From: Saccharophagus sp. K07
Lineage (GTDB): Bacteria; Pseudomonadota; Gammaproteobacteria; Pseudomonadales; Cellvibrionaceae
Reading direction: 5' to 3'
NCBI RefSeq assembly: GCF_014336955.1
Contig: NZ_QRAI01000004.1
Location: forward strand, 124,001-188,000
Length of the DNA: 64,000 nt
Part shown: in pieces, positions 11,996 through 29,966 of the stretch
How positions within the stretch are numbered: position 1 is the first letter of the stretch
Layout of the letters: each line of letters opens with the position of its first letter
Position numbers and translations under genes: made by a program
The notes under the pieces: generated by a model
The model's input: the letters and a program-made list of their open reading frames with translations, nothing else
Told to the model about the DNA's origin: nothing
Database searches by the model: none

Positions 11996-12005
11996 GGAGA
12001 TGTCA

Positions 12006-13217: not shown

Positions 13218-13223
13218 TCTCCT

Positions 13224-14549
13224 ATGCCCGCCCGCACCGCTCAGCCGACGCCTCCCCTTATTGCCGAGTATCGCGATTGGCTGGTCTGCCACGACTGCGG
13301 CGTTGCACAAAAGGTCGTGCCGGTCGCGCGCGATTTACAGCTGGTGTGTTGCAACTGCGGTCACCCGCTGTATTTTGGCCGCGGCTCATGGCTCGATAAA
13401 ACCACCGCAATGGCAGTGTCGGCACTGGTCTTGTTTATCGCCGCCCACGTCTTCGATTTTTTTACCCTGGTGCTCGGCAACAGCAGTCAAACCATCACTA
13501 TTTTGGCGGGCGCAGGTTCTCTTATTGAGCGCGAAGAGTGGCTGTTGGCGAGTTTGGTGTTGGTCACCACATTTATTTTGCCGATTTTGGAAATTGCCGC
13601 GCTGCTGTATTTATTGTTGCCCTACCGTTTCAACAAACGCCTGCCCGGACAAATTCATGTGATGCGTTGGTTGGAGCGGTTGCAGCACTGGATTATGCAC
13701 GACGTATTTTTATTGGGCGTGCTGGTGACTACCGTAAAACTGGGTGATAGTGCCACCGTTGTTCCCGGTCCGGGATTGCCATTGTTTTTTTTGTTGGTGG
13801 CGGCGTTGCAGGCGGGTTATTGGTTTATGGATAAACGCAATATTTGGAGTTGGCTCTACCCGAATAATTGTTTCAGTCAGAGCGACGAAGATGTTTTATA
13901 TGATTGCGATGTCTGCAAAGCCATGGTCGGCGAAAGCATTATTCGCCATCACGGCTATTGTCCACGCTGTGGTGCGCGGATTTACACGCGCATTCCGCAA
14001 AGTCTGCAAAAAACCACGGCGCTGATTTTGGCGGCCATTATTTTGTATATCCCCGCAAATCTGTATTCGATCATGCTGTACGAAGAACTCGGAACAAATT
14101 ACGACAGCACGATTTTGGCGGGTGTTATTGATCTTGCTGCGGCAGGATTGTGGATGGTGGCGTTAGTAGTGTTTGTGGCGAGCATAGTGGTGCCGATCGC
14201 TAAATTGTTGATGCTGATATTTTTGGTATGGTCGGTCAAAGTGCGTATGGAAGGCATGTACACAGTGCGCACGACCATGTATCGGGTAACCAAATTTATC
14301 GGCCGCTGGTCGATGGTGGATGTGTACGTGGTGACCTTATTAACTTCTGTCGTCCAATTTGGTCTGGTTGGCCATGTTGAGCCGGGGCCTGCGCTCTTGC
14401 CATTTGCTGCTGTAGTGGTTTTAACCATGTTGGCGGCGGAGACATTTGATCCGCGATTTATTTGGGACAACGCACCGCCTGATGCTGCCGCAGGCCATAT
14501 GCGCGGTCGCACCCTTGCACAACTCAATTCAATGAATAACTCTGATTAA
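13224..14549 (+). CDS. pqiA: Intermembrane transport protein PqiA
   Basis: PqiA is the inner-membrane component of the PqiABC lipid transport system. The protein has two repeats, each a cytoplasmic zinc-ribbon-like segment followed by four transmembrane helices. CHDCG and CCNCG form the first metal site (residues about 21-46), and CDVC with CPRCG (about 228-252) form the second. Length 441 fits the family. pqiB and pqiC follow on the same strand. PqiABC is implicated in envelope integrity, and pqi genes are superoxide-inducible in E. coli. Confidence 0.94.
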   Translation: MPARTAQPTPPLIAEYRDWLVCHDCGVAQKVVPVARDLQLVCCNCGHPLYFGRGSWLDKTTAMAVSALVLFIAAHVFDFFTLVLGNSSQTITILAGAGSLIEREEWLLASLVLVTTFILPILEIAALLYLLLPYRFNKRLPGQIHVMRWLERLQHWIMHDVFLLGVLVTTVKLGDSATVVPGPGLPLFFLLVAALQAGYWFMDKRNIWSWLYPNNCFSQSDEDVLYDCDVCKAMVGESIIRHHGYCPRCGARIYTRIPQSLQKTTALILAAIILYIPANLYSIMLYEELGTNYDSTILAGVIDLAAAGLWMVALVVFVASIVVPIAKLLMLIFLVWSVKVRMEGMYTVRTTMYRVTKFIGRWSMVDVYVVTLLTSVVQFGLVGHVEPGPALLPFAAVVVLTMLAAETFDPRFIWDNAPPDAAAGHMRGRTLAQLNSMNNSD

Positions 14550-14617
14550 ATCGACATTATGATTTTTCCTTTAGCCATAAGTGGTTGTTCAAGCGCCCGC
14601 GGCGCAGGAGAGCGGCT

Positions 14618-16231
14618 GTGAATTTGTCTGACGCCAGTCTCAAAAATGCGCCCTCCATATCACCCATCTGGATTGTGCCTATCGTAGCGCTTGTCATTGC
14701 TGCGTGGCTCGCCGTGCATTCCTGGCGGCAAAAAGGTACGGAAATCGAAATCCTGTTCGATAACGCCAACGGTATTCAGGTCGGGCAAACCCAAGTGCGT
14801 TTGAAAGATGTGCCGGTGGGAAAAGTTACCCGCATGCGCTTGAGCGAAGATTTATCGCAAGTGCGTGTATTTGCATTACTCGATCGCCAAGTCAGTCGCC
14901 ATTTAAGTGAGAACACGCGTTTCTGGCTGGTGAGTCCGCGTGTCAGCGCCAGCGGCGTGTCCAACCTCGGCACCTTGATTTCAGGAATTTACATCGTCAT
15001 GGACCCGGGAAAACCCGGGGATTTTCGCGATGTTTTTACCGGCTTGACCGAGCCTCCCGCAATTCAATCCGACGATCAGGGAACGCAATACGTATTGTTG
15101 GCGGATTCTCTGGGATCGATTGATTTGGGTTCGCCGGTATATTTTCGCCAATTGAAAGTCGGTGAAGTGACCAGCTATCGCCTGGATGACAAAGGCAACA
15201 ATGTTGAAATTCGTATTTTTATCAAAGCGCCGCACGACAAACTCGTATTGCAACGCAGCCGCTTTTGGAATGTCAGTGGCGTGGATGTGAGCATTGGTGC
15301 CGACGGTATCAAAGCCGAAGTTGGCTCTTTGGCATCGATCATCAATGGCGGTATTGCATTCGAAAATACTGTCGGCTTCGAGCCACCGCGCCGGGCGCCG
15401 AGTGATCATCAGTTCTATTTGTATCCGGACCGCAGGTCGGTCATGGATGAGCGTTATACCCTGAAATATTTTTATCTCATTAAATTCAGCCACACGGCGC
15501 GCGGTTTGCAGGAAGGCGCTCCCGTGGAATTTCGCGGAATTAAAGTGGGAGAGGTCGTCGATGTGCAGCTGCAGTCGGTGGATAAAAATCCGCATAGTCT
15601 GCATGTTTATATTTCCATGGAGCCACAGCGCCTTGATCCCAAGCACGAACCGACGCGGGAAGAGTTTGACCAGTTAATGGAAGATCTCGTCAGTCAGGGG
15701 TTGCGCGCGAATTTGAAAACCGCCAATTTGTTGACCGGTGCAAAAATGATTGACTTGGTGTTCCCGCATGAGCCGACGCCGGGTGCATTCGTTCACTCAG
15801 AGCGCTACGGAGAAATTCCAGCCATGGACGACGCGGCGGAAGATTTGGAGCAGCAAATCAATCAGTTGGCCAAAAAAATCAACAAAATTCCATTGGAAAA
15901 AATGGGCACGGATTTGGCCGAGAGCTTTGCCAATCTCAATTCCATGCTGAAGGAACTGCAGCAGAACAATACTATAGCCAAACTCGACCAAACGCTCGGC
16001 AATGTCAGCGTCGCCAGCGAACAATTGGAATCCACCATGCTGGAAGCACAGAGCGCCATGCGCGATATGGCGAGCACACTCAAGTCAATTGATGGCATTC
16101 TCAGTCCGGATTCCGGTACTCAATATGAGTTGCGCTCCACTTTGGAAGCCTTGCAATCCGCCGCCGAATCCATGGAACGCTTGGGCGAAAAACTGAATCA
16201 AAAACCGAACGCACTGATTTTCGGAAATTAA
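14618..16231 (+). CDS. pqiB: Intermembrane transport protein PqiB (three MCE domains)
   Basis: PqiB forms a periplasm-spanning needle of stacked MCE hexamers that moves lipids between membranes. One N-terminal transmembrane helix (about 17-35) is followed by three MlaD/MCE domains, seen as repeated GIQVGQTQVRLKDVPVGKV, LGSPVYFRQLKVGEV and GAPVEFRGIKVGEV segments. A C-terminal amphipathic helical stretch then forms the central channel. The GTG at 14618 is preceded by AGGAGAG (14606-14612); a TTG 11 codons earlier (14585) is the longer alternative. Length 537 matches E. coli PqiB (546). Confidence 0.94.
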   Translation: MNLSDASLKNAPSISPIWIVPIVALVIAAWLAVHSWRQKGTEIEILFDNANGIQVGQTQVRLKDVPVGKVTRMRLSEDLSQVRVFALLDRQVSRHLSENTRFWLVSPRVSASGVSNLGTLISGIYIVMDPGKPGDFRDVFTGLTEPPAIQSDDQGTQYVLLADSLGSIDLGSPVYFRQLKVGEVTSYRLDDKGNNVEIRIFIKAPHDKLVLQRSRFWNVSGVDVSIGADGIKAEVGSLASIINGGIAFENTVGFEPPRRAPSDHQFYLYPDRRSVMDERYTLKYFYLIKFSHTARGLQEGAPVEFRGIKVGEVVDVQLQSVDKNPHSLHVYISMEPQRLDPKHEPTREEFDQLMEDLVSQGLRANLKTANLLTGAKMIDLVFPHEPTPGAFVHSERYGEIPAMDDAAEDLEQQINQLAKKINKIPLEKMGTDLAESFANLNSMLKELQQNNTIAKLDQTLGNVSVASEQLESTMLEAQSAMRDMASTLKSIDGILSPDSGTQYELRSTLEALQSAAESMERLGEKLNQKPNALIFGN

Positions 16232-16235
16232 TCCT

Positions 16236-16820
16236 ATGCGCCGAATTTTTCTTATCGTCTTACTTTGGCAATTGTTCGCTTGTAGTTCTACGCCGGAAAT
16301 CAACCGCTACACTTTTGCGCGCGATATTCCCCCTACTGCGGGCGGCGCGGCAGAATTATCCGGCGGCTTGGGAGTTGGGCCGATTGAATTACCGGAATAT
16401 TGGCGGCAAAAGGAAATTGTTGTGCTGTCCGGTGATAATCGCATTATCAGTAACCCCAATCACATCTGGGCGGGCGATCCTAAACTTGCGATCAGCCGAA
16501 CCATAGCGACATCGCTCAGTCAACAACTGCAATTTAATGATATCTGGGCGCATCCCTGGGATTCGCGCAGCAAGCCGCAAAAGCAAATTTTATTGATTAT
16601 CGAGTCCATGGGCGGACCTTTGGGTGGGCCGGTGGAATTGGTCGCCAAATGGCGCTTGACGGATGATTTTGGGATGAAGGTCATTGCCACTGAAAGGCAA
16701 TCGTTTCAGGTAACCACTGCGAATAAATCCTATCCTGCATATGTGGAAGCGTTGAACCAAGCAGTTGGGCAACTTGCAGATGCATTGGAAAGTTCAGTGC
16801 GTCGCCATTTCCTTAATTAA
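16236..16820 (+). CDS. pqiC: PqiC outer-membrane lipoprotein
   Basis: PqiC is the small lipoprotein partner that docks the PqiB needle at the outer membrane (ABC_trans_aux family). A lipoprotein signal ends in LFAC with the lipidated cysteine at about residue 16. The mature region has the family's GPIELPEYW and the SQQLQFND...RPLP-type C-terminal fold. It starts four bases after the pqiB stop, so it is in the same transcript. Its 3' end overlaps the opposite-strand acetyltransferase gene by four bases. Confidence 0.9.
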
Positions 16821-17539
16821 TCTTCGCGGGTTGGTGCAAAACACGTTTTTAACCATTTCCAGAAACTATTTCCCGCGGTGAGATAGCGGTCGAGTTCAAC
16901 CTGGTTTTGCCAATAAAAATTTCCTTTGCGGAATAAAAATTCCCGTTTCAGCATGCGCTTGCGTGGATTCAGATGTTTGATAACGCGTGCGGGATTACCT
17001 GCTGCGACTACGTTAGCAGGAATATCGGATGCCACCACAGCGCCCGCGCCAATTACACTGTTATCGCCAATCGTGACTCCTTTGCAGACAATTACGCGAG
17101 CGCCGAGCCAGACATTATCGCCGAGGGTCACAGGTTCTGAGCAGCGAAAAGGTCGCGTGCGATTGTACAGCCCATGCCAGTCGCAATCGTTGATGCTACA
17201 CTCCGTCGCGATCATGCAATTGGAACCGATGCGAATACCGATGGCAGAGGTAATTTCCACGCCGGGGGCGATCAGGCAATAATCACCAATTTCAATGAAG
17301 CCCTGCCCCTGCCGGCTCGACCAAGTGGTCATTCTGACGGGTTTTGTGGGATGGCTGATCAGATGCAAAAAATTCCCGGCGGAAATATTGCGACCGTGAA
17401 TTTCGCAAGAGCGCGGTTTGACGATCAGTGGGTGAACGCCGAGCTGATCGAATTGCGGCACAACAAATCGCCGGACATACCAATCATTAATACGGCCGCT
17501 GAGATATTTGATAAAAAAAGGTCGATGATCTTTACGCAC
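16817..17539 (-). CDS. Hexapeptide-repeat acyltransferase (LbH, WcaF/LpxA-type)
   Basis: The C-terminal two thirds form a left-handed beta helix. Hexapeptide repeats run from [15 protein letters not shown] through [12 protein letters not shown] to the trimeric acetyltransferase core [16 protein letters not shown] and [17 protein letters not shown] ending in AGNPARVI. Such enzymes O-acetylate sugars or nucleosides using acetyl-CoA. The N-terminal 60 residues are basic and cytoplasmic. It is divergent from a methyltransferase with only 14 bases between starts, and the two may share a surface-glycan modification role. The substrate is not predictable. Confidence 0.85.
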
Positions 17540-17553
17540 AGGGCTAATCGCAC

Positions 17554-18207
17554 ATGAATGAAATGTCGTTGCAGGATATGTCTAAATTAACGGAATTGCA
17601 CCAAGCGCTTGAACAGCATCAGATTAAAGGTTTTTTGGCGCAGGATGAAGCTGAAGCGTTGTATCAGTATGCGCTGCATAGCAGTTCACTCGGCCCCTGT
17701 CTGGAAATCGGCAGCTATTGCGGCAAATCCAGCGTGTATCTCGGATCTGCCTGTCGCGCGCAAGACAATATTTTATTTACCATCGATCATCACCGGGGTT
17801 CGGAAGAGCATCAAACTGGCGAGGAATATCACGATCCGGATTTATTTGACCGCAACGCGGGACGAGTGGATACCTTTCCGGCGCTGCGCAAAACCTTGGA
17901 TCTTTTTTCTCTACAACAAACCGTGGTCCCTATAGTTGCGCCTTCGCAAGTGGTGGCAAAAAAATGGGCCATGCCTCTTGGACTCGTCTTTGTCGATGGC
18001 GGCCACAGTTTGGAGCAGGCCCTGTTTGACTGCCTTACTTGGTCAGAATTTGTGGTTCCCGGCGGGTATTTGTTAATTCACGATATCTTTCCCAATCCTG
18101 CCGACGGTGGACAAGCGCCCTATCTTGCGTTGCAGGAAACGTTGAAAAAACAGACATTTTCCTGGGTTGGGACTGTGAGATCCTTGGCGATCCTGCAACG
18201 TCGATAA
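17554..18207 (+). CDS. Class I SAM-dependent methyltransferase (Methyltransf_24-like)
   Basis: The 217-residue protein carries a SAM-binding motif I in [15 protein letters not shown] (about residues 49-63), the acidic TIDHH strand end and [16 protein letters not shown], typical of the group that includes cephalosporin hydroxylase-like and glycan O-methyltransferases. There is no signal peptide. It is divergent from the hexapeptide acyltransferase. A role in methylating a sugar or small molecule is likely, but the substrate is unknown. Confidence 0.8.
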
Positions 18208-18374
18208 TTAAGTGAGTTACACCACTTTCGATTTTCTGAAGCCGAATAATGTTCGATAACAAACGCAGAATTTACGACTTTTTACGACTGGATCACTTGC
18301 TGGACCGTGTCGAGGCGATATGGCCAGTGGTAACATACGCGGGTTTTTAACCAGTATAACCTTGGGGGTTATTT

Positions 18375-18986
18375 ATGAAATCAATCAAAAGCAGTTTGTT
18401 GCTGGGTTCTTTAGTTGCGGCGCTCGGAGCCTCGGCCGCTGAGGCTCAGACTAACAGCAATGTACAAAATTATTCTGCTTCTAATCGTGCACCTGTCATC
18501 AGCTTCACGCATGTGGGTGCACGTTATATGTTCCAGGATCTGGACCAGGACGACGCCAATTGTGACCAGGATGGACCTAATATTTATGGTAGCCTCGACA
18601 TCCAAGATGGTTGGTACGCTCGTGCATCATTTGCTGACGTGGGTGGCGATCACGGGTGTGGCTCCAGAAATGTACAGGTTGGAGGTGGTTTCCACACGCA
18701 ATTGGATCGCAATCTGACAGCCTACGGAAGCTTGAGCTTTGAAACCATTTCTCCGGATCACTGGAAAAGCGATTCAGGTTTGATCTTTGCCGCTGGTATC
18801 CGCGGCTTTTTGACGAAGGAATTGGAAGGTGGTCTTGAACTGCAGCACAGCACTACATTTGATGGCAACACTTCCATCAATGGCCTGCTCGCCTATTGGT
18901 TCAACGATATGATCGCGGCTACAGTTGATGTAGGTTTGGGATCAGATGTCACTACTTTTGCGATTGGTGCACGTTTGAACTTCTAA
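18375..18986 (+). CDS. Small outer-membrane beta-barrel protein
   Basis: The 203-residue protein has a cleavable signal peptide (MKSIKSSLLLGSLVAALGAS..AEA, cleavage about residue 24). The rest has alternating-hydrophobic strands and a C-terminal phenylalanine (AIGARLNF), the recognition signal for the BAM complex. One disulfide is possible between C62 and the cysteine of DHGCGS. The size suggests an eight-stranded barrel of the OmpA/OmpW-like class. It is monocistronic, with a strong terminator immediately after. Function unknown. Confidence 0.8.
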   Translation: MKSIKSSLLLGSLVAALGASAAEAQTNSNVQNYSASNRAPVISFTHVGARYMFQDLDQDDANCDQDGPNIYGSLDIQDGWYARASFADVGGDHGCGSRNVQVGGGFHTQLDRNLTAYGSLSFETISPDHWKSDSGLIFAAGIRGFLTKELEGGLELQHSTTFDGNTSINGLLAYWFNDMIAATVDVGLGSDVTTFAIGARLNF

Positions 18987-18990
18987 AAAT

Positions 18991-19018
18991 AAAAGGGCGA
19001 CACTTGGTCGCCCTTTTT
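18991..19018 (+). terminator. Intrinsic terminator of the beta-barrel gene
   Basis: AAAAGGGCGAC (18991-19001) pairs with GTCGCCCTTTT (19007-19017) around a five-base loop, followed by T. It lies between two converging genes and its A/T tails would serve both directions. Confidence 0.88.
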
Positions 19019-19019
19019 C

Positions 19020-20831
19020 TCAAGTTGACTGTCCCGCTTTTTCCGTGTTCCCAGCTAATAAATTGGACTTTTCCCAAACGCCTATTGGGCGCTTGATGGC
19101 TCGTTGAATCATATTTTCCTGTGCCGCTATTTCGGCTTCAAAAAATAAATTGCTGGCAAACCATTCGCCTTCCTTTTCTGATGGGGCTTGGATAGTCCCG
19201 CCGGCAAAAATATTGCTATGCGCTTCCACGTCTCGATTTTCGTTTACGTAAATCGACACTGCAGAGGCGTTTTTCTCAGGATAAAAAACATTTTCTTCAA
19301 GTAACACGCCAATGGCGTTCTGCATAAATAAGTTTGCAGTAATTCTTTCTTCATTTTTTGCGTAGCTTGCGGTATCTCCAATCCAGATATTTCGGCGCAG
19401 GCGAATATTGGATGAGCTTTCGTTTTCGGCCGATTGCACAACTACATTTGTATAAGAGAATTTATTGTCTTCAAATAAAATATCGTTGTTTTTTCCTGTT
19501 AGCAGGATGTCCGCCATGCCTTTGCCGGTAAATTCTGCATGTTCAGGCACAAGCTGATAAGCGGAAAATTCTAGTCCTATCACATGAAGGTTGGCGAAAG
19601 AATCGTTCATGGCAAAAAAAGCAGTGCGGGAATTTTCCAGCTTGGGACGTTCGCCTGAAATGCCGTAATAAGCGATAACTGCGGGCTCAGCTTCGCTGCG
19701 GCCAGAAACCAATTTAATCAATTGTTCATTGCGCCAGGTATCTCCGCGTTTTAAGTAAAGGTGATCGGGATAACCGTTGCGCATTTTCGCAAGGCCCGCA
19801 CGCAGAGTTTTGCAAGGCGACGTTTCACTCAAGCAAGTATTGTCGTCATCCCCGGTGGAACTGCTGACATAGATCAATTTTGAATCTTTTGACGGGCGAA
19901 TCGTGGTGAAGCCATTTTCCATTGCGGGTCTATTATCCAATGGAATTGTCTCGTTACTTGCCTCGGATGCAGCTTCCGTAATTTCTTCCTCCTCCTGTCC
20001 CGGCACGCCGATGCTGAAATTCACCACAAGCGGAACGCCGGCTTCACCTTGTGCATCTGGCTCGGCGTAAGGGGTGACGATAAGTGTATATTCGCCATCG
20101 GTAAAACCGTTGGCTAAAGGCATATGTTCAGCTTCGTCAGCCAAGGTATAGGTGGCACTGTTGGCGATGCGGCTGGCTGTGATAGGTCCGTCCAATTCAA
20201 AAAGCACGCTGCCGGTTTTTTCTGAATTCTCACTGATGGCAACAATATTGCCCCACTCTTCGCTCAGCATGCTGTTGTCAATTACCTTTCCCTCGTTAAT
20301 ACGAGTGATCGGATGAATCGAGCCGGTACCTTCATGCACAGCAACTAAGTCGGCAGCAATGATCGCAGGAACGGCCGGTGTCGGTTTTTTGCTATCGACC
20401 ACTGTGAAGGAAATTTCTTTGGTCTGTCCTTTTTCGCCTTCCATATCAGGCCCTTCGTAAGGTGTTACGGCGAGCTTATATTTGCCTACCGGAAGGCCAT
20501 CGTCTTTAATGCGCAGATTGTCTGTTTCGGCTTCCAGGGTGAAATCTGCCATATTTTCCCAGCGGTTGATTTGAAGCGGACCTTGCAGAGAAAAATGCAC
20601 GCTGCCGACGAGAGATTCGTCGACAGGTTGAGCCAAGATATTGAGTTGATCGATATTGTATCCAGACAAATCTATAGTGGCGCCGTTAAACAGAATTGCT
20701 AGCTTGACTGACTCCTGAGATTCAGTAACACCAATAAGTTGTAGGGATTGAATATTGGATACGGCCGAAGCTGCGTTTAGCGAAAATCCTAATAGGGGCA
20801 AAGAAAGCAGAAAAGCGGTAAATAATTTCAT
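19020..20831 (-). CDS. Secreted protein: two Ig-like repeats plus shortened beta-helix
   Basis: The 603-residue protein has a signal peptide (MKLFTAFLLSLPLLGFSLNA). Next come two copies of an approximately 120-residue all-beta module, recognisable by matching segments GSVHFSLQGP/GSVLFELDGP and YKLAVTPYEGPD/YTLIVTPYAEPD. An acidic linker precedes a C-terminal region of about 290 residues homologous to the next gene (YVSSSTGDDDN, GYPDHLYLKRGD, GLEFSAY, ILFEDNKF). The region equivalent to the partner's HGGW...HNIYVQHS face is missing, so catalysis may be lost. I chose the start at 20831 because the signal peptide begins there. Function is probably polysaccharide binding, which is inference. Confidence 0.75.
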   Translation of the reverse strand: MKLFTAFLLSLPLLGFSLNAASAVSNIQSLQLIGVTESQESVKLAILFNGATIDLSGYNIDQLNILAQPVDESLVGSVHFSLQGPLQINRWENMADFTLEAETDNLRIKDDGLPVGKYKLAVTPYEGPDMEGEKGQTKEISFTVVDSKKPTPAVPAIIAADLVAVHEGTGSIHPITRINEGKVIDNSMLSEEWGNIVAISENSEKTGSVLFELDGPITASRIANSATYTLADEAEHMPLANGFTDGEYTLIVTPYAEPDAQGEAGVPLVVNFSIGVPGQEEEEITEAASEASNETIPLDNRPAMENGFTTIRPSKDSKLIYVSSSTGDDDNTCLSETSPCKTLRAGLAKMRNGYPDHLYLKRGDTWRNEQLIKLVSGRSEAEPAVIAYYGISGERPKLENSRTAFFAMNDSFANLHVIGLEFSAYQLVPEHAEFTGKGMADILLTGKNNDILFEDNKFSYTNVVVQSAENESSSNIRLRRNIWIGDTASYAKNEERITANLFMQNAIGVLLEENVFYPEKNASAVSIYVNENRDVEAHSNIFAGGTIQAPSEKEGEWFASNLFFEAEIAAQENMIQRAIKRPIGVWEKSNLLAGNTEKAGQST

Positions 20832-21002
20832 TGCAACTCCAATGACATCTAACAAAGCGGAGCAAATAGCACCGTAGCACTAGGTCGTCGGAGAGTTTGG
20901 TTAATGAGAGGGATAGGGTGTTGACTAAAGTGCCAAATATGACAGGAAAATCAAAAATAATTTGCGGGAAGAAAAAACGGGGAATTGATTTAAGTTTGTT
21001 CA

Positions 21003-21031
21003 ACCGGCGGTCCGATTTTACAGCCGCCGGT
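21003..21031 (-). terminator. Hairpin between the two beta-helix genes
   Basis: ACCGGCGG (21003-21010) and CCGCCGGT (21024-21031) form a GC-rich 8-pair stem 21 bases after the stop of the upstream beta-helix gene. There is no good T-run, so it may be a weak terminator or an RNA-stability element. Confidence 0.45.
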
Positions 21032-21051
21032 CGCGTTGTGAATTGAAAGTT

Positions 21052-22482
21052 TTATTTGAATCCGTCGCGAATAAATTGATTGATGGCAGCAGCTGAATAT
21101 TTTGCATCCCAGGTTCCAACCTGCCTATTAAGAACCGCAGTCATAAATTCATCGAAACTATTTTGCCCTCCGAGGATTTGATTGTAGCCTCCAAGAGTAC
21201 GTCCGGGTGCGCTATATTTTTTTTCAGCTCCTTGGTTGGGCGTGTCCCATTTCCATAGAATATTATTGCTCGCTTTTATGGAACCGCTGTCGAGTCCTAA
21301 AAAGGCCTTTCTGACCAGACTTTTATAAGTTTTATTCCAGTTTGTGTCCTCTGGAGATTGCCCGAAAACAATATTGCCGTGAGCTTGATAATCAGCGTCA
21401 CCGTTGATATTAAAGTCGATACCCCAAAGGGCAGGTGTACACAAAACATTACCAGAGCATGGTTTGTCACCTTTGATCATGGAATGTCCTTCAGATACAA
21501 CGTTGTTGACGGCATGCGCGCGCACACCGGAAACAAGAGGTTTGTCGCTGTATCCAATTAATAAGCCTATAGCGTTGCGGGCAAAAAAGTTATTTTCAGC
21601 AAGGCCTCCTGAACGCAACTGTGCGCCATGGCTTGAGGCTCTGGTGATAATATTGTTGCGTAATATCAGATTCTGTCCGACCGTCGAGTGTTGCACATAA
21701 ATATTGTGATTAAACATATTGGCGCCGGCGCCGGCGACGGTCTGATGCCATCCACCGTGATCAAAGACATTTTCTTCCATTAACAATCCATCTACCCCAT
21801 CTGCATACAAATTAGATGGTCTTTTATTTCGATTGAAAGAAGATTGGTTGTAGTAGGCGCCGGTCCAAATATTGCGTCTCAAAGAGATGTTTTTGGGATT
21901 CTCGCCATTCCAAAGTTGAAGAATTACCTCGGTGTAGGTGAATTTATTGTCTTCGAATAAGATATTTTCATTTCCGCCGAGCAGAGTAATGTCGGCTCCG
22001 TTAGCTCCAGTGAATTCCGGATTATTGGGATCCATTTTATAGGCGGAGAATTCAAGTCCTATAAAATGAAAATTTGTCATCTTGCCTTTGAAAATGTGTA
22101 GGGCAGCGGCTGCGTTTTCGAGTTTTGGTCTCTCTTTGTGGTCGCCGTAATAACTGATCACAGCTGGTTCCTGGGCACTTCTGCCCGAGTGAAGATTGAT
22201 AAATCGCTGATCACGCCATACATCCCCTCTTTTGAGATAAAGGTGGTCTGGATAACCCTTGCGCATTTTTTCCAATCCGGCACCAATTGTTTTGCAAGGC
22301 TTTTGTGGGCTTGAACAATCATTTTTATTGTCGCCTTCCGAGCTGCTGACATAAATTTTTTTAGTATCTGGCGAAGCTTTGATGATGGTAAATCCTGTGT
22401 CGGAGATGTCTGCATGGGCTTCGCTGCAGAAGATTACAACTGATGCTAGGGAGAACGTTGTTATTAATCTTTTAATTTTCAT
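21052..22482 (-). CDS. Secreted right-handed parallel beta-helix protein
   Basis: The 476-residue protein has a signal peptide (MKIKRLITTFSLASVVIFCSEAHA). It continues as a right-handed beta-helix with N-terminal YVSSSEGDNKN, a probable disulfide in CSSPQKPCKT, and rungs rich in ENNxF/LRRNIW/LRNNII patterns. A histidine-rich face (FDHGGWHQ, FNHNIYVQHS) resembles the conserved surface of polysaccharide lyase-like beta-helix proteins. I cannot place it in a defined PL or GH family. A near-paralogue lies 220 bases downstream. Probably an exported glycan-active protein. Confidence 0.8.
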   Translation of the reverse strand: MKIKRLITTFSLASVVIFCSEAHADISDTGFTIIKASPDTKKIYVSSSEGDNKNDCSSPQKPCKTIGAGLEKMRKGYPDHLYLKRGDVWRDQRFINLHSGRSAQEPAVISYYGDHKERPKLENAAAALHIFKGKMTNFHFIGLEFSAYKMDPNNPEFTGANGADITLLGGNENILFEDNKFTYTEVILQLWNGENPKNISLRRNIWTGAYYNQSSFNRNKRPSNLYADGVDGLLMEENVFDHGGWHQTVAGAGANMFNHNIYVQHSTVGQNLILRNNIITRASSHGAQLRSGGLAENNFFARNAIGLLIGYSDKPLVSGVRAHAVNNVVSEGHSMIKGDKPCSGNVLCTPALWGIDFNINGDADYQAHGNIVFGQSPEDTNWNKTYKSLVRKAFLGLDSGSIKASNNILWKWDTPNQGAEKKYSAPGRTLGGYNQILGGQNSFDEFMTAVLNRQVGTWDAKYSAAAINQFIRDGFK

Positions 22483-22808
22483 GAAACCACTCCTTATTCA
22501 AAACAGTTGGTGTTTCGTTCGGTCTGGTGGGTTTTTATTGTTATAAAACGTTGCTGGTGATTATAGGTATGTATTCGGAGAAAACGTTTCAATGATGGAA
22601 ATTCTGGCGCGCAACTAGTTTGTTTGCATGCACAAATTCGAAAAGAATCGAAGAATGTAAGCAACTTATAAAGATGTCTTATGCCAAGGAATATTTCGCA
22701 ATTATACGAGTGAAGGGCTTCTAAGTGTGATTATGTGGGATAGGAAACAAAGGATGTGTGCACCGCCGCCTTTCTAATAAGGCCGGCGATGCAGGATAAA
22801 ATTAGGGT
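22483..22808. other. 326-base intergenic region upstream of the beta-helix gene
   Basis: No gene is visible. The minus strand has TATAAT at 22560-22565, a possible -10 box for the beta-helix gene. AAACGTTT (22582-22589) just upstream sits where a LacI-family operator could be. The part nearer hslO shows nothing I can name. Confidence 0.4.
22580..22590 (-). promoter_or_regulatory. Possible LacI-family operator
   Basis: The core GAAAACGTTTC is nearly palindromic around a central CG, the shape bound by LacI/GalR-family sugar regulators. It overlaps the expected -35 region of the beta-helix gene promoter. This is pattern only; no regulator gene is nearby. Confidence 0.3.
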
Positions 22809-23690
22809 TTAGTGCAGAGGATTCTGGTCGGAAGGAAAAAGCTCATCGAGATCAGCTTGGCCGTATTGATACACGGCGCCGCAAAACTCGCAATTGATTT
22901 GAATAATGTCTCGCTCACTCAACAACGCTTGCGCGTCGTTGCGGCCTAGTGACGACAAGGCTTGCAGGCCGCGTTCGCGTGAACAGGGGCACTTAAAAGC
23001 GAGTTGCTGAGCTGGAAATAAGCGCAGTTGAAATTCGTGGAATAGGCGCACCAGGAGTGTTGAATGGTCCAGTTCAAGAAGTTCTTGTGTGGTGACTGTT
23101 TGGGCCAAATGCTCGACCGTTTCCCAGGCGTCTTGACCATTGTTTCGCCCTTCACTGGGCGGTAGCGCTTGCAATAACAATCCTCCCGCACGATCTCCGT
23201 CGGAGCAGAGCCAAAGACGGGTCGGTAACTGTTCTGAACGGGCGAAATACTCGGTCAAACAATCCGCCAAGGTGTTGCCTTCCAATGCAACTATGCCTTG
23301 ATAACGTTGCCCTTGAGTTGGATCCAGTGTAAGCGTCAGTATGCCGTTGCCAATCATTTCAGGGAAAGTCAGATTGCGCAGATCCGGCTCTCCATGTTCG
23401 CCAAATTTTACGATTCCTCGCAGTGTGCGTTGGTCGGTTGCCTCCGCCATTACCAGCGGCACCGGCCCAGCTCCCCGCGCTTGCAATGTCAGGGTGCCAG
23501 AAAATTTCAGAATTTCCACAATCAAGCTGACCGCCGCAAAAAACTCACCCAATAACGCACGAGCTTCGAGCGAGATATTTTGATGGGCCGTGGCATCTTT
23601 TAACGCTGTATCGAGGGAAACGATTTCGCCTCGAATATCGCAATCGTCAAAAACAAAACGGTGGATCTGATCCGCACTGGATGACTTCAT
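22809..23690 (-). CDS. hslO: Redox-regulated chaperone Hsp33
   Basis: Hsp33 is a cytoplasmic holdase activated by oxidation plus heat. The 293-residue protein has the N-terminal chaperone domain. The C-terminal zinc redox switch is CPC (C234, C236) and CEFC (C267, C270), the canonical four-cysteine arrangement. The ATG at 23690 (MKSSSADQIHRFVF) matches known Hsp33; an in-frame extension to 23864 runs through the hslR end and is not real. It is the last gene of yrfG-hslR-hslO on this strand, as in E. coli. Confidence 0.96.
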   Translation of the reverse strand: MKSSSADQIHRFVFDDCDIRGEIVSLDTALKDATAHQNISLEARALLGEFFAAVSLIVEILKFSGTLTLQARGAGPVPLVMAEATDQRTLRGIVKFGEHGEPDLRNLTFPEMIGNGILTLTLDPTQGQRYQGIVALEGNTLADCLTEYFARSEQLPTRLWLCSDGDRAGGLLLQALPPSEGRNNGQDAWETVEHLAQTVTTQELLELDHSTLLVRLFHEFQLRLFPAQQLAFKCPCSRERGLQALSSLGRNDAQALLSERDIIQINCEFCGAVYQYGQADLDELFPSDQNPLH

Positions 23691-23712
23691 CGGATTTTCC
23701 TTTGATAAAGGG

Positions 23713-24117
23713 TCAATCCCAATATTGGGATTCTTTGAATTGATGGATTTGGCGGCGCTGTTTTTTGGTCGGGCGACCTTCAGTGACTGGCTGCAGGGCG
23801 TACGCCAATTTGCGTTGCTGGGCGGAAAGTTCGCGACGCGCGATGCTTTCCTGTGTCTCTTCATAAAGCAGGGCCGCTTCCGGTGCGCCGCGGCGCTGCT
23901 CGGAGAGTGCTTTCACTATGACCTCGCGCTCATCGAAACCCTGGCGGATTTGCAGAACCATTCCAGGTGTTATATCGCGGCTGGCTTTGACGCGCTGGCC
24001 GTCAACGTGAACTTTGCCACCTTCAATGGCCTGCTTGGCCAGGCTGCGCGTCTTGAAAAAACGTGCGGCCCATAACCATTTGTCGATGCGTACCTTGTTT
24101 AAGGGTTCAGTATTCAT
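23713..24117 (-). CDS. hslR: Heat-shock protein 15, S4 RNA-binding
   Basis: Hsp15 binds 50S subunits carrying stalled nascent chains and recycles them after heat shock. The 134-residue protein begins with the S4 domain (VRIDKWLWAARFFKTRSLAKQA and GGKVHVDGQRVK) and ends in the basic tail GRPTKKQRRQIHQF of the family. Its ATG overlaps the yrfG stop by four bases (ATGA), and hslO follows 22 bases later, so the three genes form one operon. Confidence 0.95.
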   Translation of the reverse strand: MNTEPLNKVRIDKWLWAARFFKTRSLAKQAIEGGKVHVDGQRVKASRDITPGMVLQIRQGFDEREVIVKALSEQRRGAPEAALLYEETQESIARRELSAQQRKLAYALQPVTEGRPTKKQRRQIHQFKESQYWD

Positions 24118-24794
24118 GGTGACTCTGGACTGTGTACGGCTTGTGAAGGAATCAATTCATCGAAGTCGATGACATCGATAAATTCGCCAGAGCGCTGCGC
24201 CGGTTTTTGGGAATCGGGTTGATTGATGCAGACCAAGTAACGAAGCCCAAATGTTTGGGCAGTGCGTAATACTGTGACATTGTCATCGATAAAAAGGGTT
24301 CGGGACGGGTCGATATTTTCTGCCTGCGCCAGGCAACGCCAAAACTCCTGGGCTTCCTTTGGATAACGGTAATCGTGGGATGACACCACCAAGTCCAGCC
24401 AGCGGTCGATTTTGGTGACTTCCAGCTTCAAGGCAAGCCCCTTGCGATGGCTGTTGGTCGCCAAAATGACTTTTTTGCGCATATCCTTGAGAAAGCGTAA
24501 AAACGTTTCTGCGTGCGGCCGGGTTTGAATTTTATGTTGAATCTCGCGCTTCAACGCGGGAATATCCATGCGCACGAGATCCGACCAGTAATCCAGGCAG
24601 TACCATTGCAAGGTGCCTTCGTGGGACGCTATCAGCTGGCCTAATTCATGTTGCGCGTCGGGCAGGGCTAGGCCGTGGAACTCCGCGTAACGTTGGGGCA
24701 GGTGGGTCAACCAGAAGTAGTTGTCGAAATGCAGGTCGAGCAGTGTGCCGTCCATATCCAGCAAAACGGTATCCACTGCATTCCAATCAATCAT
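24114..24794 (-). CDS. yrfG: GMP/IMP nucleotidase, HAD family
   Basis: YrfG is a HAD-superfamily phosphatase acting on GMP and IMP in E. coli. The nucleophile motif LLDMDGTLLD puts Asp13 and Asp15 in place, motif II is ILATNSH, and motif IV is TLFIDDN. The 226-residue start at 24794 (MIDWNAVD) aligns with the family; the longer frame runs into the opposite-strand nudE gene. It is divergent from nudE with only 34 bases between starts, so their promoters must overlap coding sequence. Confidence 0.92.
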   Translation of the reverse strand: MIDWNAVDTVLLDMDGTLLDLHFDNYFWLTHLPQRYAEFHGLALPDAQHELGQLIASHEGTLQWYCLDYWSDLVRMDIPALKREIQHKIQTRPHAETFLRFLKDMRKKVILATNSHRKGLALKLEVTKIDRWLDLVVSSHDYRYPKEAQEFWRCLAQAENIDPSRTLFIDDNVTVLRTAQTFGLRYLVCINQPDSQKPAQRSGEFIDVIDFDELIPSQAVHSPESP

Positions 24795-24828
24795 GGGCAA
24801 AGTTGAACTAAAAAAACCGGTGGCCAGT

Positions 24829-25380
24829 ATGCCTACAAAACCCGAGATATTAAAGCGCACCCTAGAATGTGAGAGTCGCCTCTTTCGCGTGGAATCCCTG
24901 GATTTACGTTTCAGCAATGGACAGGAGCGAACCTTTGAGCGCTTGATTGGCAGCGGTGTGCCCGCCGTCATAGTCGTACCCATGCTGGACGATCAGCGGG
25001 TGATTCTGGTGCGCGAGTACGGGGCGGGCATTCACGACTATCACGTATCCCTTCCCAAAGGGCGAGTGGATGCGGGGGAGAGCCTGGAGGAAGCCGCGGA
25101 TCGCGAATTGAAGGAAGAGGCCGGTTACGGTGCCCGCAAACTCACTTTGCTTAAATGCCTGACACAGGCACCCAATTATTTATCACATCGCACCCAAATT
25201 GTTCTGGCTCAGGATCTTTATCCGGAAAAACTCGAAGGTGATGAGCCCGAACCTTTGGAACTCGAAATTTTACATTTAAATGAACTGCCAGCTTGGTTGG
25301 GGCGGGGCGATATCACCGAGGCGCGCACCATCGCCGCCTTGTATTTAGCGCGTGACTATATTGCTGCTCAAACAGCCTAA
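24829..25380 (+). CDS. nudE: ADP compounds hydrolase NudE
   Basis: NudE hydrolyses ADP-ribose, NADH and AP(n)A-type dinucleotides. The Nudix box begins at GRVDAGES (78-85) and continues as RELKEEAGY (92-100). The C-terminal LEGDEPEPLEL and EARTIAALYLARDY segments are diagnostic of NudE. The ATG at 24829 gives 183 residues, matching E. coli (186); a start at 24793 is possible but unsupported. Position next to yrfG-hslR-hslO is the conserved order. Confidence 0.95.
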   Translation: MPTKPEILKRTLECESRLFRVESLDLRFSNGQERTFERLIGSGVPAVIVVPMLDDQRVILVREYGAGIHDYHVSLPKGRVDAGESLEEAADRELKEEAGYGARKLTLLKCLTQAPNYLSHRTQIVLAQDLYPEKLEGDEPEPLELEILHLNELPAWLGRGDITEARTIAALYLARDYIAAQTA

Positions 25381-25740
25381 TTGCCGCGGCTAACTGCCAA
25401 ATTAGTTATGCAAACCCGTGCCAAATAGCGGCTAATTCGACCGCATAGCAGTTAAGCGACGACGCAGTGAGATAAGCCGGGTTCAGATCGGTGAAGCGCT
25501 TGCTTACTGCGGAAATATAGAGACGGAACGGGGCGGTACAAACAAGCGATTTAAAATTGTGGCGCTTGTTGTTGCAAAAAAGTCGTTGTAATCGAGCTTC
25601 GCTTGGGCGGCGTCGGGGAAAATTGACTATGCTTTTGTTCCAGCCTCCGGATACAGACTCCTGTCGGACGGACCATCAGATTGCAGTAAATTCAGGCAAC
25701 AGCCGACCCATAAGCATAACGAAACAAGGCACGGATCATT
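25381..25740. other. 360-base gap before the small coiled-coil gene
   Basis: No convincing gene. AACAAGCG (25541-25548) and CGCTTGTT (25563-25570) form an 8-pair hairpin without a T-run, and GCGGCTAA occurs twice (near 25384 and 25427). I can name nothing else here. Confidence 0.35.
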
Positions 25741-25950
25741 ATGAATACAGCCCCTCAAAATGTTTCGGGCATTGACAGTCACGATACGTCAATTCTCAAG
25801 CAGCAGTTAGTGCGCGAAATCACATGTTTGGAAAGACAATTGGAACGCATTCGCATGCGGGAAGATTTTGCGACTGACGCGACGCTTCAGACTTACGAGG
25901 AAATGATCGAAAGTCGCCGCAAGATGTTATACAACCTGCCTTGGGAATAA
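25741..25950 (+). CDS. Small coiled-coil protein, 69 residues
   Basis: The protein has a short polar N-terminus and then a charged helix (residues about 18-65) with heptad spacing (LVREITCLERQLERIRMRE), ending in LPWE. It carries no signal peptide or membrane segment. I do not recognise a family. Its isolated position 200 bases before gspA gives little context. The composition, unlike chance frames, supports a real small cytoplasmic protein, perhaps oligomeric. Confidence 0.55.
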   Translation: MNTAPQNVSGIDSHDTSILKQQLVREITCLERQLERIRMREDFATDATLQTYEEMIESRRKMLYNLPWE

Positions 25951-26149
25951 GGCAGGCAGAGCGCACCTGATGCCATTTCCCTTGTCGCACGCAGCCGACC
26001 TACGGTTATCTTCGCCCTATTGAACCCACTCGCCGGGACGGGACTCTACATACGCAAGTGCGCTATATCCGCACTTATGCTGCCTTTAGAATCCGGGTAT
26101 CATCCGGGGGCCATAAAAACACATATACCGTCGCCAGCTGCTTTTATCT

Positions 26150-27787
26150 ATGTATCACAGTTATTTCGGCTTGGATGAACAAGCGTTCTCCATTGCAGTA
26201 AACCCGCGTTACCTCTATATGAGCACCCAGCACCGGGAGGCGCTGGCGCATTTGCTTTACGGGGTAAGCAGTGGCGGTTTTGTGATGCTGACCGGCGAGG
26301 TTGGCACGGGCAAAACCACCATTATTCGTTGTTTACTCGAACAGCTGCCGGATAATGCCGACCTCGCCATTGTGATGAACCCTTCGGCAAGCGCGCGCGA
26401 TCTGTTGTGCAGTATTTGCGACGAATTCGGCGTGGAATACTCAGCCGATGAAGCGAGTATCAAAGTTCTGACCGATAAGCTCAGTGAGTTTTTGGTTGAG
26501 AACCACCGCCAGGGGCGCAAGACCATCGTCTTGATCGATGAAGCGCAGTTATTGCGGATTTCCACCCTGGAACAGGTGCGCCTGCTGACGAATCTGGAAA
26601 CCAACACGCAAAAACTGTTGCAAATCATTCTGGTCGGCCAGCCAGAACTCAACGAGTTGCTCGCCAAACCCGCCTTGCGCCAGCTGTCCCAGCGCATTAC
26701 GGCGCGTTATCACCTGCGGCCTTTGAGCGTCGAGGAGACGGAGGCCTATATCAAACATCGTCTGGCGGTGGCGGGAATGCCGCCGGGCAGACAGCCATTT
26801 CCGCCAAAAGTCGTGCGCCGTGTGCACCAGATCAGCCGCGGTATTCCCCGCTTGATTAATGTGCTCTGCGACCGGATGTTGCTCGGCGCCTACAGTCGCG
26901 AGGCAACGCAGATCGACTCCGATATCTGCCGTCAGGCCGCCATCGAAGTGCTGGGCGAGGGCATAATGCCAAAGCGGCGGTCGTTCCAGCTGCAGCCGCA
27001 TTGGATCTATGCCGGCACGGCGCTGATCGGATTTGTTCTCATCGGGGCTATTATCTGGTTATCGCTGGGTGCAGGTCGCGCAGTTCCCGAACCGCCGAAA
27101 ATCGGTGGCAGCATTATCCGTGAAACCAATGCCAGCCCTGTAGCCGCGCCGCTTTTATCCGCAGCTCGTGAAGAAACCTGGTGGCAATTGAGTCAGGATC
27201 ACGCCCTGGCGGATTTGCTCGGTGTGTTGGAGATCAGCTACGACGGTGCCATGTACCCCTGCTGGGTGGTGAGCAAGCAGGGCTTCAAATGCGAAACCCA
27301 AAAAGTGAACACATGGGAAGACTTTAAAGTCCTTAATCGACCTGCTGTGCTGTCCATTATCACGCCGGGTCGTCACAGTGCTTACGTGACAGTGGTTGGC
27401 ATCAACGACACGCAAGCCTGGATCAAACAGAAAGATCGGATGACCACTGTTTCTCTTGCTGAATTGGGGCGTCTGTGGACCGGTGAGGTGGTGTTTATCT
27501 GGCGGCGACCTGAACAATTTAAGGATCCTATAGGTTTGGGATCGAAAGGTCCGCTGGTGAGCTGGGTTGCTGAGCAGTTTGCTGTTCTGGACCAGCAGAG
27601 CGCGCCCTTGACCCGCGATCATTTCAACGCGCAGCTGCAAAAGCGCGTCAAATTATTTCAGCGGGCAAACAATTTGAACGACGATGGTTTCGTCGGCATG
27701 CAAACCTTGTTGAAGCTCAATGAAGCACTCGGGGTGGAAAAATCCTTAACGGATTTGGCGCCGACATTGATTACGACGGGTGGATAA
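26150..27787 (+). CDS. gspA: Type II secretion assembly ATPase GspA/ExeA
   Basis: GspA (ExeA) is an inner-membrane ATPase that, with GspB, binds peptidoglycan and helps build the type II secretin through the cell wall. The AAA domain has Walker A GEVGTGKT (49-56) and Walker B VLIDEAQ (127-133). A single transmembrane helix is at about 286-308. The periplasmic part ends in a peptidoglycan-binding domain (about 485-530, VKLFQRANNLNDDGFVG). Length 545 fits ExeA (547). gspB follows after 35 bases; the core gsp genes are not in the window. Confidence 0.92.
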   Translation: MYHSYFGLDEQAFSIAVNPRYLYMSTQHREALAHLLYGVSSGGFVMLTGEVGTGKTTIIRCLLEQLPDNADLAIVMNPSASARDLLCSICDEFGVEYSADEASIKVLTDKLSEFLVENHRQGRKTIVLIDEAQLLRISTLEQVRLLTNLETNTQKLLQIILVGQPELNELLAKPALRQLSQRITARYHLRPLSVEETEAYIKHRLAVAGMPPGRQPFPPKVVRRVHQISRGIPRLINVLCDRMLLGAYSREATQIDSDICRQAAIEVLGEGIMPKRRSFQLQPHWIYAGTALIGFVLIGAIIWLSLGAGRAVPEPPKIGGSIIRETNASPVAAPLLSAAREETWWQLSQDHALADLLGVLEISYDGAMYPCWVVSKQGFKCETQKVNTWEDFKVLNRPAVLSIITPGRHSAYVTVVGINDTQAWIKQKDRMTTVSLAELGRLWTGEVVFIWRRPEQFKDPIGLGSKGPLVSWVAEQFAVLDQQSAPLTRDHFNAQLQKRVKLFQRANNLNDDGFVGMQTLLKLNEALGVEKSLTDLAPTLITTGG

Positions 27788-27822
27788 TCTGCGATGTTAA
27801 ACCCTGACAACGGTGAACACCT

Positions 27823-28686
27823 ATGTCGCTGATTCTCGATGCGTTAAATAAGGCGGATCGCGAGCGCGAATATCGCGATACAGTGCCGGACATCAACACA
27901 GTTCACGGTGTGGCGCGCGCGAAGCAGGTGCGCCACCACTGGATTATTGCGGGATTATCCGCAGGTTTATTGGTGCTGCTGGTACTGCTCCTTGTTGTCT
28001 GGTGGCGCAGCTCGACGCCAGCGGTGGTGGAGCCTGTGGCGCAGACAAACTCCGAGATGGCACAGCCGTCTGCAGCAAGCACCCCTCCAGCAAAACCAGC
28101 CCCCCCGGTAACCGAAGTTGTGACTAAGCCTGTAACCTTTGTGGATCAGGAAGTTCAGGCCCTTTATCAACCGCAGGAAGATACCCGGGTAGTACAGGTC
28201 GTAGAGCCGAAAGTTCAGGCGGTACCTGTGCAACCGCCAGCGCCGGCAACTCCAGCGCGCCGGAATGACCTGAACGAAGAGACGATACGTGCGCTATGGG
28301 AAGAGACCAAACGGGAATTCGGCGAGCCGGTACCGCTACCGCTGATACCGCAGCCGCAACCTGTTGCGGTAAAAGCCGAACCCGCCAGGACAAAAACCAA
28401 CGAATTGCCTGCCGATATACTGCCGGAAGAGACTCTCGCCGGGCATCCCACGGTGCCTTTTCTGCACGAATTGCCGGTGACCACACAAAACAAAATTCCT
28501 ACTTTGATGTACGCCAAGCATCAGTACGACAACGGCATTGTGGTGCTCAACAAAGAGGAATTGCAGGTGGGAATGGCGACTCGCGAAGGAGTATTGCTGG
28601 AGCGGATTTTGGCCGATGGCGTGCTACTGTCCTATAACGGCACTCCATTTAAATTGGGATCGCTCAGCAGTTGGGTGAATTATTGA
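27823..28686 (+). CDS. gspB: Type II secretion assembly protein GspB/ExeB
   Basis: The 287-residue protein has a short cytoplasmic N-terminus with the MSLILDALNKADRER start typical of the family. One transmembrane helix (40-60) and a proline-rich periplasmic linker (about 65-240) follow. The C-terminal domain of about 60 residues (IPTLMYAKHQYD...VLLERILADGVLLSYNG) is the GspB/PulB-like domain that contacts the secretin. It is in an operon with gspA. Its 3' end overlaps the end of the opposite-strand waaA by 23 bases. Confidence 0.9.
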   Translation: MSLILDALNKADREREYRDTVPDINTVHGVARAKQVRHHWIIAGLSAGLLVLLVLLLVVWWRSSTPAVVEPVAQTNSEMAQPSAASTPPAKPAPPVTEVVTKPVTFVDQEVQALYQPQEDTRVVQVVEPKVQAVPVQPPAPATPARRNDLNEETIRALWEETKREFGEPVPLPLIPQPQPVAVKAEPARTKTNELPADILPEETLAGHPTVPFLHELPVTTQNKIPTLMYAKHQYDNGIVVLNKEELQVGMATREGVLLERILADGVLLSYNGTPFKLGSLSSWVNY

Positions 28687-29950: not shown

Positions 29951-29966
29951 AGAGGCGCCTGTCCAA

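Follow-up and report, generated by a model that had tools for sequence, protein, structure and literature searches.

A tandem beta-helix pair with a kept and a lost conserved face in Saccharophagus sp. K07, from a family often linked to exopolysaccharide clusters

We analyzed a 64,000-nucleotide stretch of the Saccharophagus sp. K07 genome (the window; positions 124,001 to 188,000 of contig NZ_QRAI01000004.1 in assembly GCF_014336955.1, here G000 C4:124001-188000) that carries two neighboring genes for beta-helix proteins, one short (S) and one long (L). The find is a predicted enzyme together with a paralogue that has lost the conserved face, in a beta-helix family that is often linked to exopolysaccharide (EPS) clusters; it is not a new kind of system. 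On balance, we think that the family cuts or modifies the cell's own EPS, with S as a satellite enzyme and L as a non-catalytic EPS-binding protein. The features of the two genes are as follows.

21052..22482, minus strand: open reading frame (ORF) of S, the short paralogue, 476 residues; a complete right-handed beta-helix behind a signal-peptide-like N-terminus (by eye)
21604..21762, minus strand: conserved face of S, residues 241-293, from conservation counts
19020..20855, minus strand: L, the long paralogue, 611 residues from the TTG at 20855, from the ORF list
20367..20762, minus strand: module 1 of L, all-beta, Ig-like by a weak Pfam match, from profile comparison
19974..20369, minus strand: module 2 of L, homologous to module 1 (phmmer E 6.6e-16)
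19284..19922, minus strand: N-terminal helix rungs of L common with S (55% identity, S residues 27-241), from sequence search
19023..19283, minus strand: degenerate helix remainder of L, 87 residues (236 in S), without the face residues apart from an alignment-dependent Tyr at 262, from alignments
18991..19017, minus strand: terminator-like hairpin of 11 pairs with a T tail, directly 3' of L, from a hairpin scan

The paralogous pair and the conserved face of S

Searching the whole genome with S gave a match of its residues 27-241 to L (55% identity, E 6.7e-71), and the similarity is therefore far beyond chance. At E <= 1, the search found three places in the assembly, namely S, L, and a third copy on another contig, and a broader profile taken to E 10 found the same three. 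The tandem beta-helix paralogues with shared N-terminal rungs reported in a preliminary description of this DNA are thus borne out, and the two proteins fall in one family rather than in unrelated ones. The start of L is more likely the ATG at 20831, which gives a protein of 603 residues with a signal-peptide-like N-terminus by eye.

Structure prediction of both proteins, which the preliminary description had proposed, was done with AlphaFold2. S is predicted to be a right-handed beta-helix (predicted template modeling score, pTM, 0.83; mean predicted local distance difference test score 76; ten other sequences in the alignment), with weak stretches that include residues 213-219, 337-351, and 376-399. 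L reached a pTM of 0.50 and was modeled confidently only in the helix part, at about 310-480 and less surely to 569; its modules gave no confident model. Compared by VIA-align, the best structural match of the S model is the PL9 lyase Pel9A (1ru4; Z 28.7, 2.9 Å over 323 residues), tied with the glycoside hydrolase BT_1002 (Z 28.2). A PL9 rhamnogalacturonan lyase (Z 27.2), an alginate epimerase/lyase (Z 26.4), and RbmB (Z 26.3, 294 residues, 3.3 Å) follow. AlgE4 and AlgE6 are also among the best matches, at Z 24 to 26 together with the alginate epimerase/lyase, while the adhesin PfbA gave Z 22.5 and GH136 chains gave Z of about 22 (7v6m, Z 22.0 over 336 residues). The modeled part of L again matches the GH136, PL9, and RbmB folds. 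The predicted fold of S is common to many families and by itself does not separate a lyase, an epimerase, and a hydrolase.

The conserved face of S is made up of the stretch DHGGW...HNIYVQ (residues 241-264) and RASSHGAQLRSGG (residues 281-293). We counted its residues across 33 complete helices in a wide alignment; 23 are cellular and 10 come from viral contigs. D241 is kept in 31 of the 33, G244 in 33, W245 in 31, H259 in 32, and Y262 in 33; the counts for the second stretch are R281 29, S284 29, G286 30, R290 29, and G293 29. Homologues of the shorter protein therefore do keep a conserved face, each position in 29 to 33 of the 33. Three further copies outside this set (two of G1077, one of G1075) are identical in the face stretch and keep the Asp, Gly-Trp, His, Tyr, and both Arg; with these added, D241 is found in 34/36, H259 in 35/36, and Y262 in 36/36. 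The counts do not take in L034, L064, or L070-L072, whose contigs are the same or overlap; G950, represented by its N-terminal part alone; six f13 genomes and two places in G079, where the match is confined to the N-terminal cap; or the plasmid matches H3 and H4. Exceptions among the counted copies include Demequina, which is without the Asp and both Arg, and G303, L065, and L066, which are without LRxGG.

The L-type proteins are different. All three have lost D241, G244, W245, H259, R281, and R290 in every alignment made. At position 262, Tyr is absent from the L-types of two other genomes of the genus (G001 and G002); in L itself the residue depends on the alignment, with Tyr in three of four settings and in one other alignment, and none in the wide alignment.

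By the strand list of the S model (239-241, 259-264, 278-280, and 285-289), the face residues would sit on neighboring rungs. D241 is the only carboxylate conserved there. In terms of general enzymology, one Asp with a His, a Tyr, and two Arg would resemble a lyase or epimerase more than a two-Asp hydrolase.

Selection on L, its modules, and the third copy

Each of the three same-genus genomes seen (G000, G001, and G002) has a complete gene and an L-type gene side by side in tandem. A tree built on the N-terminal half common to both types groups the three L-types in one clade (100/99), so the face was lost before the three species split. Codon models give strong purifying selection on the L-type modules and N-terminal rungs: omega is 0.04-0.11 in five pairwise comparisons, with the sixth saturated, and these values are rough since dS is saturated for most pairs. 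The likelihood-ratio test (LRT) statistics against omega = 1 are 96-122.

After the shared part, 87 residues remain in L against 236 in S, and hence most of the C-terminal half of the helix, not one stretch, is gone. The loss of the HGGW...HNIYVQHS face from L, as first described, stands, and the loss is wider than was described. For the leftover C-terminal part, comparison of L with its G002 orthologue gave omega 0.74 and an LRT of 0.2 over 64 codons, and constraint on this part is likely relaxed. The L-type gene of G001 is frameshifted near its 3' end (L022:6700-7350) and that of G002 runs off its contig; the downstream frame in G001 still encodes the C-terminal cap, and G002 is similar up to the contig end. 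We considered a simple truncation of the L C-terminus and dropped it, as the G001 downstream frame aligns with the S C-terminus at a score that 0/2000 shuffles reach. This significant alignment indicates an internal deletion. The tail of L itself can be aligned there too, but not significantly (336/2000 shuffles), and the L leftover as a whole has its best alignment further along S (25/2000 shuffles), so that the alignments do not agree on the deletion boundaries in L.

The frameshift in G001, and a leftover with no measurable constraint against the G002 orthologue, would suit an L that is a decaying, functionless pseudogene. We regard this as improbable. The gene is found in 3/3 same-genus genomes as a monophyletic group, its modules and N-terminal rungs are those under strong purifying selection, and its frame is intact in the window, where it is followed by the terminator-like hairpin, a feature by count no more than chance. 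An L that kept or gained a different catalytic site, on the modules or the N-terminal rungs, is a far slimmer prospect. The rung residues D79, K84, D87, E177, and D178 are indeed kept in all three L-types, but they are also kept in most complete copies, and for the modules Pfam yields no enzyme family at E 0.1 and a profile search of the PDB no match better than E 0.14.

Homology between the two L modules was recovered by phmmer at E 6.6e-16 in a set of 15 sequences, which agrees with the duplicated all-beta modules noticed earlier. Module 1 has its nearest relatives among the first modules of other proteins rather than in module 2 of L, which makes the duplication older than L. The third copy of the helix (C1:123530-124915), outside the window, is 66% identical to S over residues 14-475 and lies inside a 950-residue ORF (L005:10072-12924, which is G000 C1:122072-124924). 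This ORF has, in order, a lipobox-like LTGC (by eye), a Bact_surface_Ig-like domain, two L-like modules, a Big_9 domain, and a complete helix, and judged by its sequence it looks like a lipoprotein. Because it contains the same two modules in the same order, the modules predate L and, contrary to the preliminary description, were not added to it. We also compared a set of 15 complete copies (set A1), three of which are S and the genes at its position in G001 and G002. In each of the other 12, an N-terminal extension of at least about 180 residues precedes the helix. Pfam run on three of these 12 found PKD, Bact_surface_Ig-like, or Big_9 domains, and in G015 the stretch before the helix looks like linker only. 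Given the extension in those 12 copies, module loss by S is the simpler account, and S most simply lost its modules, with the caveat that several viral-contig homologues also consist of the helix alone.

The name Ig-like holds for the modules in part. Pfam Ig_J (PF24421) matches L at 18.7 bits, below its cut-off of 29 bits, with a best module match of E 0.0019; it weakly matches 3/9 module copies. In the K07 genome the module occurs in four copies, only in L and the third copy, and at E 1e-5 or better it occurs in 11/145 related genomes (own included). Weaker forms occur in other large proteins of related genomes, and the module is thus not confined to the S/L beta-helix family. The modules may resemble an Ig-like domain that is common in secreted marine enzymes, and the distant copies in large proteins agree with this.

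Both S and L look like satellites of the third copy, which is the likely parent; the tree leaves the branching order of the complete copies open. The earlier suggestion, in which duplication preceded the conversion of an enzyme into a binding or scaffold protein, is supported in part. Paralogy, face loss, and selection on L fit it, but L and S need not be daughter and enzyme, as both look like satellites.

Two complete copies in G001, one in the satellite locus (L022:9123-10478) and one in an EPS cluster (L024:8338-9693), have 87% helix identity (393/451) and group together on the tree (97/100), which suggests gene conversion or a recent copy.

Exopolysaccharide setting and distribution of homologues

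The third copy lies among genes for Wzx, an AT3-SGNH acyltransferase, glycosyltransferases (GT), WecG, Bac_transf, and a Wzy_C-like polymerase (below the Pfam cut-off), and G073 has two copies beside Wzx, sulfotransferase, MBOAT, and GT genes. Taking markers from these two loci (L005 and L028), we found at least two EPS marker classes including Wzx or Wzy in 11/23 homologue loci and in 0/20 control stretches; with the source loci left out, 9/21 are positive. The homologue loci range from 8.8 to 28.6 kb; the controls are 19.9 kb each and come from seven genomes of the window's family only, and one of them has a single weak sulfotransferase match. The seven positive loci of the window's family represent three genera. 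The marker Wzy_b and the reading of Wzy_a (Wzy_C below cut-off) are partly by eye, and among the 11 only L059 relies on this. In two marker-negative loci, L081 and L082, there are nevertheless genes for an exosortase, along with three GT2 genes, and for Ugd, ManC, and an epimerase. On plasmids, homologues from Jannaschia and Rhodovulum (three of five matches examined; matches H3 and H4 were left out of the reading) lie amid flippase, O-antigen ligase, Wzz, exosortase, or GT genes and are annotated as right-handed parallel beta-helix or calcium-binding proteins.

L028, L029, and L030, from three genomes of genus g4, each have two complete convergent copies in an EPS cluster; in L028, one copy has PKD domains and the other Bact_surface_Ig-like domains.

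This setting bears on whether the family instead gathers nutrients, with S and L as secreted scavengers acting as lyases or glycosidases on foreign polysaccharides (algal, plant, or other bacterial). The closest folds do include PL9 rhamnogalacturonan and pectate lyases and GH136 lacto-N-biosidases, and 12/23 loci in all, the window pair among them, lie outside a marked EPS cluster. Against this stand the Wzx/Wzy-like and other EPS markers beside 11/23 loci and none of the controls, and the 11 neighboring window ORFs scanned, nearly all on one side, include no gene for sugar uptake or catabolism. We consider a foreign substrate unlikely.

Counting the K07 genome itself, homologues are present in 9/145 related genomes, in 11/293 genomes of the order (six by the N-terminal cap only), in 1/369 of the class (the K07 genome), and in 6/398 of the phylum (one by the N-terminal part only). 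Elsewhere, we found one on a named genome contig, from Demequina, and others on five plasmid records. The phage records searched contain no homologue. Two scans of contigs from IMG/VR, on which the viral nature of these homologues rests, gave three and 11 loci, with some overlap, and one viral contig has a tape-measure gene upstream of the helix gene. The viral-contig homologues are candidate phage depolymerases. The IMG/VR homologues are L032, L033, and L061-L069, some of them near ORFs that look terminase- or portal-like by eye.

The window pair is flanked by hslO (22809-23864) on one side and by a small ORF on the other. The small ORF (18375-18986) is convergent with L, has a signal-like start, and matches nothing in Pfam or NCBIfam up to E 1. 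In G001 and G002 (L022 and L023), the pair adjoins a gene read by eye as metG, as opposed to hslO in the corresponding region of the window, 18375-23864, and so the pair or its flanks have moved. Terminator-like and promoter sites in the region are not more numerous than in shuffled sequence, and for this reason we do not claim co-transcription of S and L. Further along the window, 13224-16820 carries intact-looking pqiA, pqiB, and ABC_trans_aux (pqiC-like) genes.

Comparison with known families and proposed roles

We file the S family under no known family. Up to E 1, nothing in Pfam matches S, and L likewise does not match Beta_helix (PF13229); this model is matched by 10/15 complete homologues at E <= 1, with two copies of G073 above the cut-off. 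A profile of the 15 complete helices, run against PDB sequences, found only GH136 chains below E 1e-5 (five distinct sequences), and that match is limited to the N-terminal cap, positions 6-108 of 438. The GH136 lacto-N-biosidases (LnbX, TnX, BsaX, and ErLnb136) have the same right-handed beta-helix domain as the S model (Z 22), but sequence similarity stops after the cap and does not extend over the full length, and the NCBIfam LnbX model gave 17.7 bits, far below its cut-off of 2500. The catalytic Asp pair of ErLnb136, given as D568/D575 (PMC7335108), has no identified counterpart in the S face; the profile alignment ends before this region. PL9 lyases have a catalytic Lys and Ca sites. Their Pel9A-type beta-helix, a fold shared by many families, is also that of the S model, and this PL9 group (Pel9A, 5olq/5olr) includes the best structural match of S; the family profile found no sequence similarity to them. 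The preliminary description saw no fit to a known polysaccharide lyase family, and this held in comparisons with Pfam, NCBIfam, and PDB sequences only, apart from weak exceptions: Pectate_lyase_4 matches 1/15 homologues at E 0.0071, and DFA-IIIase, at E 0.3, is the one PDB lyase that the family profile found below E 1. Literature searches had no paper on the S/L beta-helix family among the matches listed.

Two characterized proteins are closer in setting. RbmB of Vibrio cholerae (9ozl/9ozd), a lyase of Vibrio polysaccharide, is like the S family a beta-helix protein with a predicted signal peptide and ties to a Wzx/Wzy-like EPS system (PMC11637428). The family profile search found no RbmB chain up to E 10, in a sequence set that may not include 9ozl. 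We know of no Ig-like modules or lost-face twin of RbmB. WceF of Pantoea stewartii is an exported beta-helix protein that acts on its own EPS and is encoded inside a Wzy-dependent EPS cluster, that of stewartan; it is described as tailspike-like, as a slow hydrolase, and as clustering with the polymer like a lectin (PMC7949094). It differs in forming trimers and in its head and neck domains of the phage-tailspike kind, whereas the S family has a GH136-like N-terminal cap, a D/H/Y/R face, and, in many members, Ig-like modules. No sequence link to WceF was found, and no WceF chain is among the PDB matches of the family profile. The EPS-cluster setting of RbmB and WceF is seen for the third copy and the 11/23 loci, and not for the window pair and the rest.

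We weighed whether the family might consist of EPS epimerases, or of adhesin-like matrix binders with a conserved ligand face, and not of depolymerases. His/Tyr-type faces suit epimerases, and the S model does match AlgE4, AlgE6, and the alginate epimerase/lyase, as well as the adhesin PfbA. The fold, however, does not tell these activities apart, both EPS-linked beta-helix proteins described above cleave their polymers, and viral-contig homologues, one of them downstream of a tape-measure gene, occur where depolymerases are expected. This alternative therefore seems to us unlikely.

We favor an enzyme acting on the cell's own EPS because setting, export signals, fold, and face together point that way. 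S would be an exported right-handed beta-helix protein that most likely cuts or modifies this polymer, and catalysis would probably take place on the face of D241, H259, Y262, R281, and R290. A beta-elimination (lyase-like) or an epimerase-like reaction would fit His, Tyr, and Arg better than a two-carboxylate hydrolase. A uronic-acid polymer, which a lyase would need, is possible. The parent is likely to have been the lipoprotein-like third copy, with its two modules and other Ig-like domains, in the EPS cluster on the other contig, and the tandem satellite locus would then have arisen. There S would have kept the whole helix without modules as a soluble exported enzyme, and L would have retained its modules and N-terminal rungs but not the face. 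Its role would be to bind, anchor, or space the same polymer at the envelope without cutting it.

Several observations weigh against an own-EPS enzyme with a selected, non-catalytic partner. The S/L pair is outside an EPS cluster, with 0 markers in window 11001-31000, and the loci that fail the marker test number 12/23: the window pair, the G001 and G002 pairs, G077, G015, G171, Demequina, and L081-L085. The one UDP-glucose/GDP-mannose dehydrogenase gene above cut-off in the K07 genome lies far from its EPS cluster. In the face, H259 is lost (His to Arg) in one viral-contig homologue, L062, and R290 is absent from 4/33 rows. For L, the rough omega values, the frameshifted G001 gene, and the G002 gene that runs off its contig count in the same direction; moreover, the leftover compared between L and the third copy gave an LRT of 14.3 (73 codons, saturated dS), so some constraint there is possible.

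More tentatively, and with less than even confidence, S and L may be a conserved enzyme/pseudoenzyme pair, in which S would trim or dissolve the matrix and L would hold or guard the same self-made polymer, the viral homologues included in what would be a new EPS-active family.

Biofilm texture and dispersal can be under the control of enzymes that cut a bacterium's own matrix polymer, a role suggested by RbmB and WceF. In the family described here, a single small conserved face connects viral contigs with EPS clusters of the window's bacterial family and of Rhodobacterales. L amounts to a natural experiment: selection has kept its helix start, which matches that of S, and its EPS-linked modules, but the face is gone. 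If the more tentative enzyme/pseudoenzyme reading is true, this would be a new EPS-active beta-helix enzyme family common to bacteria and phages, with a disarmed copy kept by selection.

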